DNA of 64,000 nt from an uncultured Pseudohongiella sp. (lineage in GTDB: Bacteria > Pseudomonadota > Gammaproteobacteria > Pseudomonadales > Pseudohongiellaceae): positions 91,320-155,319 of the forward strand of contig CACBCS010000003.1 in NCBI GenBank assembly GCA_902537815.1, written 5' to 3'. A program made the position numbers and the translations under genes. The notes under the pieces are model-generated. The model was not told the DNA's origin and did not search any database. It saw only the letters and a list, made by a program, of their open reading frames with translations. Below, piece by piece: positions 17,272 to 26,015 of this stretch (within the stretch, counting starts at the first letter, position 1; the number at the start of each line of letters is the position of its first letter).

Positions 17272-18687
17272 TCATTGCGATCCAGGTGCGGGCAACGTCA
17301 ACATGACACTGGCTCCACCCAAGACACTGGTGGTAACGCTGACATCGCCTCCATAGCTGTCGACAATATCAGCGACCACCGCTAAACCGATGCCTTGACC
17401 TTGCATCAGAGTGTCAGCCCTGGCGCCTCTCTGCAGCACATAGGCAACCTGATGATTGGGTATGCCCTGACCATCATCCTCTACCTGAATAATGACGCCA
17501 TCCGTGAGCGTTGCCTCTCTTTTAATCCGAACGATCAATTCGGATCTACCATACTTGTAGGCATTGTCGAGCACGTTCCCCAGCAGCTCCATCAAATCTC
17601 GCTTGTCACCGATAAACTGGGCGTGTCTGTCAATTTCTCTGTGCACGAACATCTGTTTGTCTGCATAAACTTTCTGCAGTGCTTCGATGACTTGATCGGT
17701 CGTCTCAGCCACATTCACGCGTCGCGCAATCGACAGGCTGTTGCCTGCCTGAACGGCACGCTGGAGCTGGTAGGTCACGATCTGATTCATACGCTCGATT
17801 TGCTCATCTGCCGCACGCAGCTGGCTGAGAAATTCCGAACTGTTTTTCCCCTCAGCACTTTTCAGCCAGGGAATAATTCCCGACATGACCGCCAGCGGCG
17901 TTTTGAGGCTATGGGCAAGATCGCCGAGAGTTGTCCGATATCGGCTCTGCTGCTTTCGCTCGCTCTCTATCAGTTGATTAAGATTCGCCGCGACGCCCCG
18001 CAACTCTTTCGGGTACTCCGCCTCAAGCTTGTCCTTTTCACCCAATTCGATCGCCCGAAGATCAAGGGCCATCCGACTGAGGGGCGCCAGCCCCCATCGA
18101 AGCAGTAAAGTCTGGATCATAAGCAACAGGACAGCGACCCCTCCGAGCCACGACCAGAGATCCCTGCGGAAATTTCTGATCTCTGAGTAATAGGGATCTG
18201 CATTTTCCAGCACAGTGAAATTGAACTCACTGATGCCATCTTCCCAGAGAATTCCGTAGCTGAGGCGAAAATACACTGCAGCCTCACCCGGCATGACTTG
18301 AAAACGCGATTGCCCCACGCCTATGCGCTCGCGCAAAAACCCAAGCTCAGGTGGATCAAAAGCTCTGGCAGAATCACTTCGCCATAACTCCCCTATACTG
18401 GCACTGCTGATGTAGCCATAGAGCCCTGAATCAAGTTGATTAAAACGGGGCTCCTGCAGCGTCTCCAGAAAATAGAATTCGCCGTTGCGTTCGTCGACCG
18501 CAGAGAGTAACAGGTAAATCTGGACCTGAAGCTGCTCGGCCGCTCCGGCTTCAACGCTGGAACGAAAAGCCCGGTCCAGCACCACTCCGATCAAACCCAG
18601 AAACACGCACAGCAGGATACCGAAAACCCACATGAGTCGTGATCGCAGAGAATACGCCCGCATAGTCGAAGTGCTCGTCAAATGCAC
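17272..18687 (-). CDS. Sensor histidine kinase, PhoQ-like
   Basis: Two TM segments, HAMP region, LGDLAHSLKTPLAVMSG H-box, LLGNVLDNAYKYGRSE N-box, VEDDGQGIP G-box. Confidence 0.92.
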   Translation of the reverse strand: MHLTSTSTMRAYSLRSRLMWVFGILLCVFLGLIGVVLDRAFRSSVEAGAAEQLQVQIYLLLSAVDERNGEFYFLETLQEPRFNQLDSGLYGYISSASIGELWRSDSARAFDPPELGFLRERIGVGQSRFQVMPGEAAVYFRLSYGILWEDGISEFNFTVLENADPYYSEIRNFRRDLWSWLGGVAVLLLMIQTLLLRWGLAPLSRMALDLRAIELGEKDKLEAEYPKELRGVAANLNQLIESERKQQSRYRTTLGDLAHSLKTPLAVMSGIIPWLKSAEGKNSSEFLSQLRAADEQIERMNQIVTYQLQRAVQAGNSLSIARRVNVAETTDQVIEALQKVYADKQMFVHREIDRHAQFIGDKRDLMELLGNVLDNAYKYGRSELIVRIKREATLTDGVIIQVEDDGQGIPNHQVAYVLQRGARADTLMQGQGIGLAVVADIVDSYGGDVSVTTSVLGGASVMLTLPAPGSQ

Positions 18688-18699
18688 ACCTGAAATATG

Positions 18700-19380
18700 C
18701 TATCCGCTTTCAGCCAAGCAGAATCTGTAACCCTGGCCTCTGACCGTTTCAATGGGTTTCAGGGTTTGCTGTGGATCAAGCTTAAGCCTGAGTCGGCGTA
18801 CAAAGACTTCGAGGACATTGCTGTCCCGATCATAATCTTGTGCGTAAAGATGCTCAGTCAGTTCTGTTTTTGAAATAACCTGCCCAGGATGCATCATCAG
18901 ATATTCGAGCAGTTTGTACTCGTAGGCAGTGAGGTCTATATTTTCACCGCTGACCGACAACCGTTTGGCCGTCAGGTCGAGCGTGAACGGACCGAAGTTT
19001 AATTTGGGTTTGGCAAACCCGGCTGCTCTGCGCAGAAGCGCATTCAATCTGGCAACAATTTCTTCAAGGCGAAACGGCTTGACCACATAATCGTCTGCGC
19101 CCGCGTCGAGACCGGCAACCTTGTCCTGCCAGTCACCTCGGGCGGTCAGAATCAGGATAGGGAACTGCTTGTCGGCACCGCGGATCTGCTTAATCAGGGA
19201 AATGCCGTCTATCTCCGGCAATCCCAAGTCGATAATGGCAGCGTCATAGGCATACTCAGTGGAAAAATACAGACCGGCCTTGCCGTCTTCAGCGACGTCA
19301 ACGACGAAGCCTTGGTTGCTCAGACCCTGTTCAAGCTGTTGCCGGAGCAAACTCTCATCCTCTACAACCAGTAGTCGCAT
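18700..19380 (-). CDS. Response regulator, OmpR/PhoB family, PhoP-like
   Basis: MRLLVVEDESLLRQQLEQGL receiver start; winged-helix tail NVLEVFVRRLRLKLDP...IETVRGQGYRF. Confidence 0.94.
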   Translation of the reverse strand: MRLLVVEDESLLRQQLEQGLSNQGFVVDVAEDGKAGLYFSTEYAYDAAIIDLGLPEIDGISLIKQIRGADKQFPILILTARGDWQDKVAGLDAGADDYVVKPFRLEEIVARLNALLRRAAGFAKPKLNFGPFTLDLTAKRLSVSGENIDLTAYEYKLLEYLMMHPGQVISKTELTEHLYAQDYDRDSNVLEVFVRRLRLKLDPQQTLKPIETVRGQGYRFCLAESG

Positions 19381-19416
19381 TATCGGCTACCTCCGCAATC
19401 CCATCGGCGAGTCGGT

Positions 19417-19749
19417 TCAGTTTCCGCCCGTGACCTCACCGTTCCTGGCGTGGACGAACACCGTGAATACCTTGCCCGAATTTTCCATGCGAATCTGGTA
19501 GCGCTGGTTGCTCGATTCACCGACTAAGGTAATCCGCAGAATGTTACCGGCGAATCGTTGTCTGGCCAGATTCACTGCCTGTCGCTCAGTAATGACGCCA
19601 CTCAGTTGGCGGCTATTCCGGACTTCCCGCAGCGGACTCGTTTGGTCCAGCTGGTTCTGTTCAAGCGGCGGCGGAACCTGTCCCTGAACACTCTGACTCC
19701 AAAGTAGCAACAGAGAGAAGAGTAAACTCGGCGTTCCAGTAATTTTCAA
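19417..19749 (-). CDS. Secreted PepSY-domain protein
   Basis: Signal peptide; ITERQAVNLARQRFAGNILRITLVGESSNQRYQIRMENSGKVFTVFVHARNGEV. Confidence 0.82.
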   Translation of the reverse strand: MKITGTPSLLFSLLLLWSQSVQGQVPPPLEQNQLDQTSPLREVRNSRQLSGVITERQAVNLARQRFAGNILRITLVGESSNQRYQIRMENSGKVFTVFVHARNGEVTGGN

Positions 19750-22162: not shown

Positions 22163-22669
22163 ATGATGAAAAGAGGTTTTCTGACGCTGGGACTGGGGCT
22201 CATGACGAGCGCGCTGGTTGGTTTGGCCCATGCCGTTGAAGAGGGTGACCCTGCTCCTGACTTTTCCCTTCCGTCAATCTACGCGGACCAACCGGCCATT
22301 GCGCTGGCTGACATGCCGGGTAAAACCGTTTACGTTGACTTTTGGGCGTCTTGGTGCGCTCCGTGCCTAACCTCGCTTCCACTTTACAACGATCTGTACA
22401 ACAAATACCGGGGCCGGGGTCTCGAAGTGGTAGCGATCAATGTGGACAATCCGATCGAAGATGGCCTGGATTTCCTGCTGGACACCCCTTTAGACTTTTT
22501 GATTCCCTCAGACCCGGAAGGAGATATGGCGACACAGTTCAATGTCATCGGCATGCCGTCCTCCTACCTGATCGGACCTGATGGCGAAGTAAAACTGGTG
22601 CACATGGGATTTCGACCGACAGACATGGAGATGATCGAAGCCGCGATCGTCGCAAATCTGCCAGACTGA
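22163..22669 (+). CDS. Exported TlpA-like thiol-disulfide redoxin
   Basis: Signal peptide; VDFWASWCAPCLTSLPLYNDLY; cis-Pro GMPSSYLIGPDG. Confidence 0.92.
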   Translation: MMKRGFLTLGLGLMTSALVGLAHAVEEGDPAPDFSLPSIYADQPAIALADMPGKTVYVDFWASWCAPCLTSLPLYNDLYNKYRGRGLEVVAINVDNPIEDGLDFLLDTPLDFLIPSDPEGDMATQFNVIGMPSSYLIGPDGEVKLVHMGFRPTDMEMIEAAIVANLPD

Positions 22670-22687
22670 TTGGGGTTGCCCGCTAAG

Positions 22688-22894
22688 ATGCGACTGATAC
22701 TGTCTTTCATCATGCTTGCACTGCTTGCTGCCTGCAGTCAGGTTCAGCCCTGGGAGCGTGGCTATCTTGCCAAACAGGAAATGGCCTGGGACAGCGATCC
22801 TCTGGAACGCGCTCTCAACGACCACATTTTCTTCAGCAAAGAAGCCTCCTCAGGCGGCAACACTGCGGCCGGCGGCGGTTGCGGATGCAACTAG
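22688..22894 (+). CDS. DUF4266 small lipoprotein (68 aa) with C-terminal GGGCGCN
   Basis: LLAAC lipobox; PWERGYLAKQEMAWDSDPLERALNDHIFFSKEASSGGNTAAGGGCGCN. ATG 22688 preferred over TTG 22670. Confidence 0.87.
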   Translation: MRLILSFIMLALLAACSQVQPWERGYLAKQEMAWDSDPLERALNDHIFFSKEASSGGNTAAGGGCGCN

Positions 22895-22935
22895 CTTTCA
22901 AGGCTCGCCGGCCTTCAGACCATTGAGGTCACCCT

Positions 22936-24093
22936 GTGAAAAAGCCCGCGTCACGCAGCCTGATAGCTCTGTCCACTTCGGCACTTGCACTGCCCGGCAT
23001 CGCCGAGGCGGATGCACCGCCTCTGGCCTCATCACTCTCTTACAAGATCTCAAACTATCAGGAAGATGACTTAAGTCGTGAACAGGTTCCATTTGGCGAA
23101 CTTGAGCGGTACGACATCGACGTCCATCAATTTCAGTTTGTCTCCCCGCTTGGTCGTGACTATGCGCTGTTCATTGACGCTAATCACGAAAATATGAGTG
23201 GCGCTTCTCCCTGGTTCTCGACAGCAGGCTCCAACGGACAGCCAGTAATCAACATGAGCGGAGCAAGCGGCATCTACGATTCTCGGAGCGAGGTCAGCCT
23301 CGGTGTTCGGTACTATGGCGCACGCGGAAAAATCGGCGGCGCCATTGGCTACTCAGAGGAAAATGACTACCGCGCTAAATACGTCAGCATGAGCGGTTCA
23401 CGGAACTTCAATAACGATCTAACGACCCTGACGGTGAGCCTGAGTCATTCTGATGACAGCATCTTCCCGAGTGACGCTGAGCGCTTTAATCGCGTGCGTC
23501 ATGAGAACAAACAAGCAAGTTCGGTGGCAGTGAGTTTGAGTCAGGTGCTGAACCCAGTTGCCAGTTTCCAGACAGCACTGAGTCTGACCGGGCAATCGGG
23601 CTATTTGTCTGATCCATACAAACTGCAGGACAGCAGGCCTGATGAGAAGACCCAGATTGCTTTCTCGAATTCGCTGCGCTATTTCTTTATCAAGGCAGAT
23701 GGTGCGCTGCAGAGTGACTATCGCTACTACCGCGACGATTTTGGCATTCGTTCCCACACCCTAGATCTGTCCTGGTTCCAGAACGTAACACGATCATTCA
23801 AAATCGTTCCGATGCTGCGCTACTACAGTCAGTCTGCCGCCGACTTTTATACCAATATCGATGATTTTATGAAGCCGCTGTCTGAAAGCCAGTCCAGCGA
23901 TTATCGGCTGTCAGCATTCGGTGCCATCAGCGGGGGTCTGAGTTTCGTTGCGGATTTTGGTGGTTGGAGCGCTACCCTCACCGCCGAACGCTACGTAGCC
24001 AATGAAAAATACTCGGCTTTCACCGTAGCTCAACCCAGCCCCGGACTGGTCCAGTTCACCCGGCTATCGCTCGGCGTCGATTACGCATTCTAA
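22936..24093 (+). CDS. DUF3570 protein, predicted outer-membrane beta-barrel
   Basis: GTG start, signal peptide; NMSGASPWF and NMSGASGIYDSRSEVSLGVRYYG; alternating beta pattern; C-terminal LSLGVDYAF. Confidence 0.87.
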   Translation: MKKPASRSLIALSTSALALPGIAEADAPPLASSLSYKISNYQEDDLSREQVPFGELERYDIDVHQFQFVSPLGRDYALFIDANHENMSGASPWFSTAGSNGQPVINMSGASGIYDSRSEVSLGVRYYGARGKIGGAIGYSEENDYRAKYVSMSGSRNFNNDLTTLTVSLSHSDDSIFPSDAERFNRVRHENKQASSVAVSLSQVLNPVASFQTALSLTGQSGYLSDPYKLQDSRPDEKTQIAFSNSLRYFFIKADGALQSDYRYYRDDFGIRSHTLDLSWFQNVTRSFKIVPMLRYYSQSAADFYTNIDDFMKPLSESQSSDYRLSAFGAISGGLSFVADFGGWSATLTAERYVANEKYSAFTVAQPSPGLVQFTRLSLGVDYAF

Positions 24094-24108
24094 CCGCATG
24101 GAAATGCC

Positions 24109-25023
24109 ATGAGCACCAATCTGCGCCATGCCGGCTTCAGGGCAATGGGAACTTACTGCGAAATTCAGCTGTACGAAGCATCTCGGATCAGTGCCGCAAA
24201 ACTGGTTCGACGGCTGATCGACGAGGTCAGCCGGCTTGAAAGCAAATATACACGCTATCGAGACGACAGTTTTCTGAGCGAAATCAACCGCAGTGCGGGC
24301 AAGCAGACGGGTATCAAAATAGATATCGAAACTCTGAAGCTCTTTGAACATGCGAGGAGCTGCTATGAACAGAGCGACGGACTGTTTGATATCACGGCAG
24401 GCGTCCTGCGTCGCGTTTGGGATTTCAGTCGCAGGCAGATACCCGACGAATCGGAGCTTGAGGGGCTTTTGCCACTGATCGGGTACGAGAAACTCAACTG
24501 GCGGGACGATACGCTATTGATGCCCGCAAACATGGAAATTGATTTCGGCGGCATCGTAAAGGAATACGCAGCAGACACCCTCGCCACACTGGCGAGGGAA
24601 CTCGGCGTCAGGCGCGGTCTAGTCAATCTCGGAGGCGACTTCGCCGCGATTGGAACACAGCCAGAAAATCGACCCTGGCCGATAGGCATCACCCATCCGG
24701 AAGATTCAACGAAAATGATGTCACACTTTCACTTATCTGAAGGTGGCCTTGCCTCTTCCGGTGATTATGAGCGCTCTTTCATCCTGGAGGGGAAGCGTTA
24801 CAGCCACCTGTTGAATCCCAAAACCGGCTGGCCTTGCTCAGGACTGAGAGCTGTCAGCGTTGCTGCGAATCTCTGCACGGTTGCAGGATCCTTCGCTACA
24901 ATTGCCATGCTTAAGCCAGAGCAGGATGCCATAGACTGGCTGACTGATTCCGGTCTGCCGTTTGTTTTTATGGACGGCACCGGGCAGATCGGCGGGCCAG
25001 GGCTGACTGACTCGAGTTATTGA
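24109..25023 (+). CDS. apbE: FAD:protein FMN transferase (ApbE)
   Basis: RAMGTYCEIQLY, SRLESKYTRYRDDSFLSEINR, DFGGIVKEYAADT, VNLGGDFAAIG, YSHLLNPKTGWP. Confidence 0.93.
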   Translation: MSTNLRHAGFRAMGTYCEIQLYEASRISAAKLVRRLIDEVSRLESKYTRYRDDSFLSEINRSAGKQTGIKIDIETLKLFEHARSCYEQSDGLFDITAGVLRRVWDFSRRQIPDESELEGLLPLIGYEKLNWRDDTLLMPANMEIDFGGIVKEYAADTLATLARELGVRRGLVNLGGDFAAIGTQPENRPWPIGITHPEDSTKMMSHFHLSEGGLASSGDYERSFILEGKRYSHLLNPKTGWPCSGLRAVSVAANLCTVAGSFATIAMLKPEQDAIDWLTDSGLPFVFMDGTGQIGGPGLTDSSY

Positions 25024-26015
25024 ATGAGCTGCAGCGGCGGTTCGTCAAGGGCTGCAATCTGTTCACGCAGTTCCAGGATATGATCCGACCAATATCTCTG
25101 GGTGTTGAACCAGGGGAAGTTCAGGGGAAAAGCAGGGTCGGTCCAGCGTCTGGCCAGCCATGCACTGTAGTTTATCAGGCGCATGGTTCGCAGGATCTCG
25201 ATCAGCGCCAGTTCGCTCACCCGGAAATCATGAAATTCATTATATCCTTCGACCAGCTCGAGCAGTTGCGCCTGCCTGTGGTCTCGGTCGCCAGAAAGCA
25301 GCATCCACAAATCCTGTATGGCAGGCCCCATCACCGTGTCATCAAAATCAACAAAGTGCGGTGTGCCCTCATGCCACAGAACGTTCCCGAGATGACAGTC
25401 ACCATGGATCCGCAGTGATCGCCAGTCGCCTGTTGACGCAAGCTGTTCTGACATCCTGTCAAACAGATCCCGCATCAGGGTTTCGTACGCGGTAATCAGG
25501 TCAGACGGCAGGAAATCGTTCTCAAGCAGATAACGGCTGCTGTCTAACGCTGTCTCAAGGCGCAAATGTTGCCGATAGCTGAAGCTGCTCTGGGCGCCGA
25601 CGGCGTGGATTCTGGCGACAAATCTTCCCATCGTGAACAGACTATCCAGATCATCGAGCTCTGGAGTCCTACCGATGAGTTGTGGGAACAGCGCGAGCTC
25701 AAAGCCATCAACCTGCACATGTGTTTCATCGCTCGCCAGCTTCATGGGGGGAACTACAGGAATTTCCAGATCGAACAATTCCTGAGTAAAGGCATGCTCT
25801 TCGCGAATTTGCCGAGCCTCCCACCGACCGGGCCTGTAAAATTTCGCAATCAGACTGGTCCCATCGAGCAGACCGATCTGATAGACCCGATTTTCATAAC
25901 TGTTCAGAGCAAAAAAGCGGGCATCCGTGTCGAAGCCAAGGGACTCGACAGCGGCCAGAACCCGATCTGGTGTCAGTGCAGCGAACGGATGCTCGGACAG
26001 TGTCAACCACCCCAC
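25017..26015 (-). CDS. srkA: Stress response kinase A (SrkA/YihE family)
   Basis: SYENRVYQIGLLDGTSLIAKFYRPGRW; RIHGDCHLGNVLWHEGTPHFVDFDDTVMGPAIQDLWMLL. Confidence 0.93.
   Translation of the reverse strand: MGWLTLSEHPFAALTPDRVLAAVESLGFDTDARFFALNSYENRVYQIGLLDGTSLIAKFYRPGRWEARQIREEHAFTQELFDLEIPVVPPMKLASDETHVQVDGFELALFPQLIGRTPELDDLDSLFTMGRFVARIHAVGAQSSFSYRQHLRLETALDSSRYLLENDFLPSDLITAYETLMRDLFDRMSEQLASTGDWRSLRIHGDCHLGNVLWHEGTPHFVDFDDTVMGPAIQDLWMLLSGDRDHRQAQLLELVEGYNEFHDFRVSELALIEILRTMRLINYSAWLARRWTDPAFPLNFPWFNTQRYWSDHILELREQIAALDEPPLQLIQ

Follow-up and report, generated by a model that had tools for sequence, protein, structure and literature searches.

An operon for a putative flavin-bearing outer-membrane barrel, with an ApbE that lacks a signal peptide, in an uncultured Pseudohongiella

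The operon and the published DUF3570 flavin system

Flavinylation of a DUF3570 protein has been described by Meheust et al (eLife, 2021; PMC8238504), where, in passages of the main text, the DUF3570 of Chlorobium luteolum is flavinylated on co-expression with its cognate ApbE. The acceptors are the serines of two [S/T]GA[S/T] sites, and flavinylation was lost only when both were mutated. The constructs of both proteins lacked signal peptides, and the DUF3570 was recovered in the pellet. The same passages catalogue clusters of ApbE, DUF3570, thioredoxin and DUF4266, more than 220 with DsbD and 316 without, present them as a thioredoxin/DsbD-linked flavin system and point out the CXC end of DUF4266. 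They do not treat DUF3570 as an outer-membrane barrel, nor do they take up an ApbE without a signal peptide. The signal-less ApbE clade, the 16-strand barrel model with surface-side sites and the EF-hand candidate substrate set out below thus go beyond those main-text passages; of these, the clade and the prediction that the flavins lie at the surface are the most useful.

The window, the whole stretch of 64,000 nucleotides analysed here, contains four open reading frames on the + strand that form one codirectional array with intergenic gaps of 18, 41 and 15 nt. An earlier note made from the letters alone had read these as an exported redoxin, a tiny lipoprotein, a barrel and an ApbE, and this is borne out by the reading frames and by Pfam matches for all four. 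The first (22163..22669, +) encodes a TlpA/ResA-like thioredoxin of 168 residues with a signal peptide (AhpC-TSA/Redoxin, 2e-21) and a CAPC motif at 22355-22366 (+); its top match among solved structures is 3gl3 (E 2e-37). The second (22688..22894, +; DUF4266, 1.9e-23) is a lipoprotein of 68 residues, with the codon of the lipobox cysteine at 22733-22735 (+) and a C-terminal CGCN at 22880-22891 (+). The DUF3570 gene (22936..24093, +; 5.3e-60) starts with GTG and encodes 385 residues with a signal peptide at approximately residues 1-25 and Phe385 at the C-terminus, the domain PF12094 scoring 203.8 bits against a cut-off of 25. Two [S/T]GA[S/T] motifs are present, both SGAS, and match the motif for flavinylation: the first predicted site spans residues 88-91 (23197..23208, +), with Ser91 as the acceptor, and the second residues 108-111 (23257..23268, +), with Ser111. 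Finally, the apbE gene (24109..25023, +; PF02424, 6.7e-74) encodes an FAD:protein FMN transferase of 304 residues without a signal peptide. An APH-type kinase gene (25017-26015) is convergent to apbE and overlaps its end, so that the array stops there. Promoter and terminator scans gave values near those of shuffled sequence.

The operon is like the clusters described in the PMC8238504 passages in its four families, in the two SGA[S/T] sites on DUF3570 and in the CXC terminus of DUF4266; since the same families and the flavin target were published in 2021, the gene set is a member of the described system. The published clusters often include DsbD, which is variable and not required there, whereas no DsbD adjoins the operon in the window; one was found elsewhere in the same genome, on another contig. 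The thioredoxin also differs in being of the AhpC-TSA/Redoxin type, where those passages name PF13899. It had been proposed from the sequence that the substrate of the ApbE is one of its neighbours, which is right in that the barrel is the protein whose C. luteolum homologue is flavinylated (PMC8238504). The accompanying remark that no established function was known for the gene set is only partly right: flavinylation at two serines of DUF3570 was shown in 2021 in that work. Taken as a whole, the earlier interpretation is partly supported.

Upstream of the operon, at 17272-19749 on the - strand, lie genes for a histidine kinase, a response regulator and a small exported PepSY protein. PepSY proteins are tied to flavin systems elsewhere; among the surveyed clusters they have no conserved link to the DUF3570 operon.

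Linkage across genomes and a clade of ApbE without signal peptides

Conservation of the gene set was surveyed in 275 genomes of the same class, from which 80 neighbourhoods were fetched, together with 80 named relatives from public genomes. The relatives were retrieved with a set of five closer DUF3570s. DUF3570 was found in 74 of the 275 genomes, DUF4266 in 69 and an ApbE of any kind in 200. The order thioredoxin, DUF4266, DUF3570, apbE was repeated both in the class genomes and in the relatives, and the array is therefore not a chance arrangement; the neighbourhood survey proposed in the earlier note thus found the linkage, and the belief that the set co-occurs elsewhere proved correct. The nearest relative has a DUF3570 that is 98% identical, and most of the 80 have two SGA[S/T] sites. 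To judge from these relatives, the source is a marine gammaproteobacterium close to the OM182/Pseudohongiella group. Beyond the operon itself, little was conserved in the surroundings of the relatives surveyed other than lineage synteny.

Two groups of neighbourhoods can be distinguished. In group A the DUF3570 bears the flavin motif and an ApbE of around 300 residues usually adjoins it or lies nearby. In group B the DUF3570 is mostly without the motif, and the ApbE is either absent from the neighbourhood or longer and provided with a signal peptide. With a strict definition, the motif is present in 29 of the 35 DUF3570s that have an ApbE of the short type within 10 kb, as against 18 of the 38 others (p 0.003). 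With a relaxed definition the figures are 35/35 and 17/38 (Fisher 3e-8), but this motif was broadened after inspection of sequences such as TGSS, so that the strict figure is the conservative one. In a profile search of the 275 genomes, DUF3570 was present in 42 of the 43 with an ApbE of the signal-less clade and in 32 of the 232 without, the clade having been separated from other ApbEs by a cut placed at a gap in the scores after these had been seen. In one genome, G032, an ApbE of the clade is present (L276:7015-8064) and DUF3570 was not found by Pfam.

The group B loci (L113-L144; for example L141:13384-16341, -) retain thioredoxin, DUF4266 and DUF3570, mostly without the flavin motif. At 23 of them there is also a protein of approximately 990 residues bearing the middle domain of hydrazine synthase alpha (PF18582), accompanied by small OMP_b-brl proteins and a TPR protein, in what appears as a second use of the three-gene core.

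The earlier note was silent on the missing signal peptide of the ApbE. The N-terminus of the protein, MSTNLRHAGFRAMGTYCE, has neither a signal peptide nor a lipobox. To place this, 96 ApbEs of the short type were compared with 29 comparators, 20 of them unlinked ApbEs taken from genomes in which the short type is present as well, and the other nine belonging to group B. By a hydropathy rule applied to the N-terminus (threshold 1.6), a credible signal-peptide core was present in none of the 96 and in all 29 comparators (20/20 unlinked and 9/9 group B). Two of the 96 exceeded the threshold, L080 through an upstream extension not shared by the family and L086 by virtue of a short run, VVVA, unlike a signal peptide. 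Ahead of the catalytic domain the short type has a median of 12 residues, which is too short for a signal peptide, against 38 in the comparators. Missed upstream starts were considered as a cause and rejected, as every gene was read from the earliest start following a stop and the gap from DUF3570 is often too short to hold one. A tree of 75 rows separates the short-type proteins from the rest by one branch, supported at 100/100.

The clade has a signature of its own, with a cysteine after the first strand (98%) and KEYA (24559-24570, + in the window) in place of KGYA. At one position of the AD..ST motif, all 96 clade members have glycine and 28 of the 29 others aspartate; the window protein has Gly260 here (codon 24886-24888, +), where the metal-ligand aspartate would stand. 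The aspartate of our alignment is presumably D283 of E. coli ApbE. Published structures show D283 as a metal ligand (PMC4767422). The AlphaFold2 model of the window ApbE has a pLDDT of 93 and superposes on known ApbE structures with a Foldseek TM of 0.82-0.89 for the best chains. The change from aspartate to glycine could mean an altered activity, although the fold and the other motifs are preserved. Canonical exported ApbEs, such as those of E. coli and Vibrio cholerae and Treponema Ftp, have the fold, the conserved histidine and the FAD-pocket motifs in common with the window protein, but they carry a signal peptide or lipobox, the aspartate ligand and KGYA where it has no such leader, glycine, KEYA and the additional conserved cysteine. 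A separate sample of 349 genomes from the phylum, with only slight overlap with the first, again showed the signature together with a missing signal peptide. The clade could serve as a sequence marker in the search for further substrates.

In two genomes, G087 (100% complete) and G005 (96%), the signal-less protein is the only ApbE and the DUF3570 bears the motif. The draft genome of the window (71% complete) likewise yielded one ApbE, that of the operon. The earlier remark that no usual partner of ApbE is nearby holds locally; in the same draft, however, two NosR-like FMN_bind proteins are encoded on other contigs, at L033:1162-3234 and L034:781-2058. Either a second ApbE is missing from the incomplete draft or this pair needs a different enzyme.

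The predicted barrel and the position of the flavin sites

The mature DUF3570 of the window was modelled with AlphaFold2 together with 55 relatives, giving a barrel of 16 main strands (pLDDT 93.9, pTM 0.88). Foldseek matches the model to generic outer-membrane barrels, and a search of PDB sequences with the DUF3570 profile gave no credible match. The usual features of an outer-membrane barrel are there, namely a signal peptide, an even number of strands, short periplasmic turns and a C-terminal aromatic residue. The long loops follow odd-numbered strands, which is the usual extracellular side, with the orientation assumed from the general rule for outer-membrane proteins. The loop joining strands 3 and 4 carries both SGAS sites, with a small hairpin between them, which puts them on the predicted extracellular side of the model.

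The extracellular loops of outer-membrane proteins are usually their most variable part. Here the extracellular loops and the extracellular halves of the strands contain 41 of the 45 residues with the highest conservation, against an expected 28 (p 5e-6), and a rank test along the strands gave the same direction more weakly (rho 0.19 and 0.16). Since conservation peaks on the side that is normally variable, the model makes it likely that a functional site is located at the outer mouth of the barrel. MtrB of the MtrCAB porin-cytochrome conduit (6r2q chain B), a barrel that aids the passage of electrons through the outer membrane, is among the Foldseek matches. The TM of only 0.43, though, represents generic barrel similarity, and MtrB encloses haem proteins where DUF3570 would bear covalent flavins.

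Compartment of flavinylation, electron path and a second candidate substrate

Because the ApbE clade is without a signal peptide and tracks DUF3570 (42/43 genomes), sequence comparison suggests that flavinylation takes place in the cytosol, before DUF3570 is exported. Envelope flavinylation is generally taken to follow export. In G087 and G005, with a signal-less protein as the sole ApbE and a DUF3570 that has a signal peptide, the simplest reading would be that FMN is put onto the cytosolic precursor. The co-expression described in the PMC8238504 passages, of the two proteins without their signal peptides and with DUF3570 in the pellet, is compatible with a non-native chain being flavinylated in the cytosol. 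Known cytosolic ApbEs serve soluble cytosolic substrates (PMC12052999). The ApbE of Klebsiella fumarate reductase, likened here by its description in that review, is cytosolic and, like the window protein, has no signal peptide, but its substrate is a soluble cytosolic enzyme whereas the linked substrate here is an exported outer-membrane barrel. Preproteins with bulky conjugates are the subject of earlier work cited in passages of PMC8082313. Export of DUF3570 through Tat was considered and set aside, RR occurring within the first 35 residues in only 9 of 118 sequences. If flavinylation does come before export, the cell would require no periplasmic FAD, and Sec and BAM would have to handle a chain bearing two bulky cofactors.

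A complete path can be proposed on this basis. Drawing on FAD in the cytosol, the dedicated signal-less ApbE would place FMN on Ser91 and Ser111 of the DUF3570 precursor while this is still unfolded. The precursor would then be exported by Sec and folded by BAM into the 16-strand barrel, placing the two FMNs in the strand 3-4 loop at its extracellular mouth. In the periplasm the TlpA-like thioredoxin, for which DsbD is the probable reductant, would hand electrons to the CXC tail of DUF4266; this glycine-rich tail may enter the barrel, bring its dithiol to the FMNs and reduce them, and from the FMNs the electrons may go on to a surface acceptor, which could be ferric iron. The relatives show CxxC in nearly all of their thioredoxins, although about ten have no recognisable thioredoxin gene adjoining the operon, and the C-terminal CGCN of DUF4266, following a glycine-rich stretch, is present in 78 of 79, the exception being a frameshift fragment. 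We give an even chance to the explanation as a whole, that the product of the operon is an outer-membrane redox protein carrying flavins, with FMN added in the cytosol and electrons relayed outward. It would amount to an outer-membrane electron route of flavin and thiol without haem.

The same flavinylated barrel could arise with FMN added in the periplasm, if export of the ApbE goes unrecognised or if a second, signal-bearing ApbE acts in vivo. Bacterial ApbEs are mostly exported (review, PMC12052999) and a signal-bearing ApbE also occurs in most genomes that have the signal-less type, yet G087 and G005, both near complete, have the signal-less type only, DUF3570 is tracked by that clade, and the median of 12 residues before the domain is insufficient for a signal peptide. 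Periplasmic addition would on this evidence seem unlikely. It is highly improbable that DUF4266 is the flavin acceptor and the barrel merely its carrier: DUF4266, the small partner that varies least, does have conserved serines in SKEASSGG, but it has no [S/T]GA[S/T] motif, is equally conserved in group B, mostly without the short ApbE or the DUF3570 motif, and it is DUF3570 for which flavinylation is experimentally demonstrated in the passages of PMC8238504.

A further alternative is compatible with the flavinylation steps proposed above and differs from the electron relay in purpose: the cluster may serve chiefly in metal uptake or the maturation of metal centres, with the thioredoxin and the CXC protein handling metal that the flavins reduce; ferric iron brought to the ferrous state at the surface would be an example. 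Copper handling is a known setting for both TlpA-type thioredoxins and CXC motifs. In the PMC8238504 passages, 25 DUF3570 clusters also include the VIT1 iron transporter. Set against this, no metal transporter or metal-binding gene adjoins the operon of the window and none is conserved in the surveyed clusters, which leaves a mainly metal-related purpose somewhat unlikely.

The signal-less ApbE may have a second kind of substrate. Signal-less ApbE genes with no DUF3570 alongside, in a few genomes from other classes, led to small EF-hand proteins that lack a signal peptide and bear an [ST]GAS motif at the N-terminus (L302:1130-1465, L303:1053-1454, L307:1492-1905, L305:13-390, L326:3631-4455 and L328:318-872). 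No such protein came up in a text search of the literature for EF-hand together with ApbE. Its gene adjoins that of the signal-less ApbE in genomes G439, G362 and G297; it is present in G694, and G353 has several paralogues. Among 78 genomes of one class the EF-hand protein was found in only two, the same two that had a signal-less ApbE in the sampled search, and the genes are adjacent in both. From its motif and gene context the EF-hand [ST]GAS protein is a candidate new substrate of ApbE. That an ApbE clade with an altered metal site flavinylates in the cytosol a barrel that displays its flavins at the surface after export, and has these proteins as a second substrate family, is a combined proposal to which we would give slightly less than an even chance. 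G694 holds a DUF3570 operon too, which is followed by two tandem copies of the signal-less ApbE, one apparently frameshifted (L330:10-1841), and in the same genome one EF-hand [ST]GAS protein adjoins a PepSY_TM protein.
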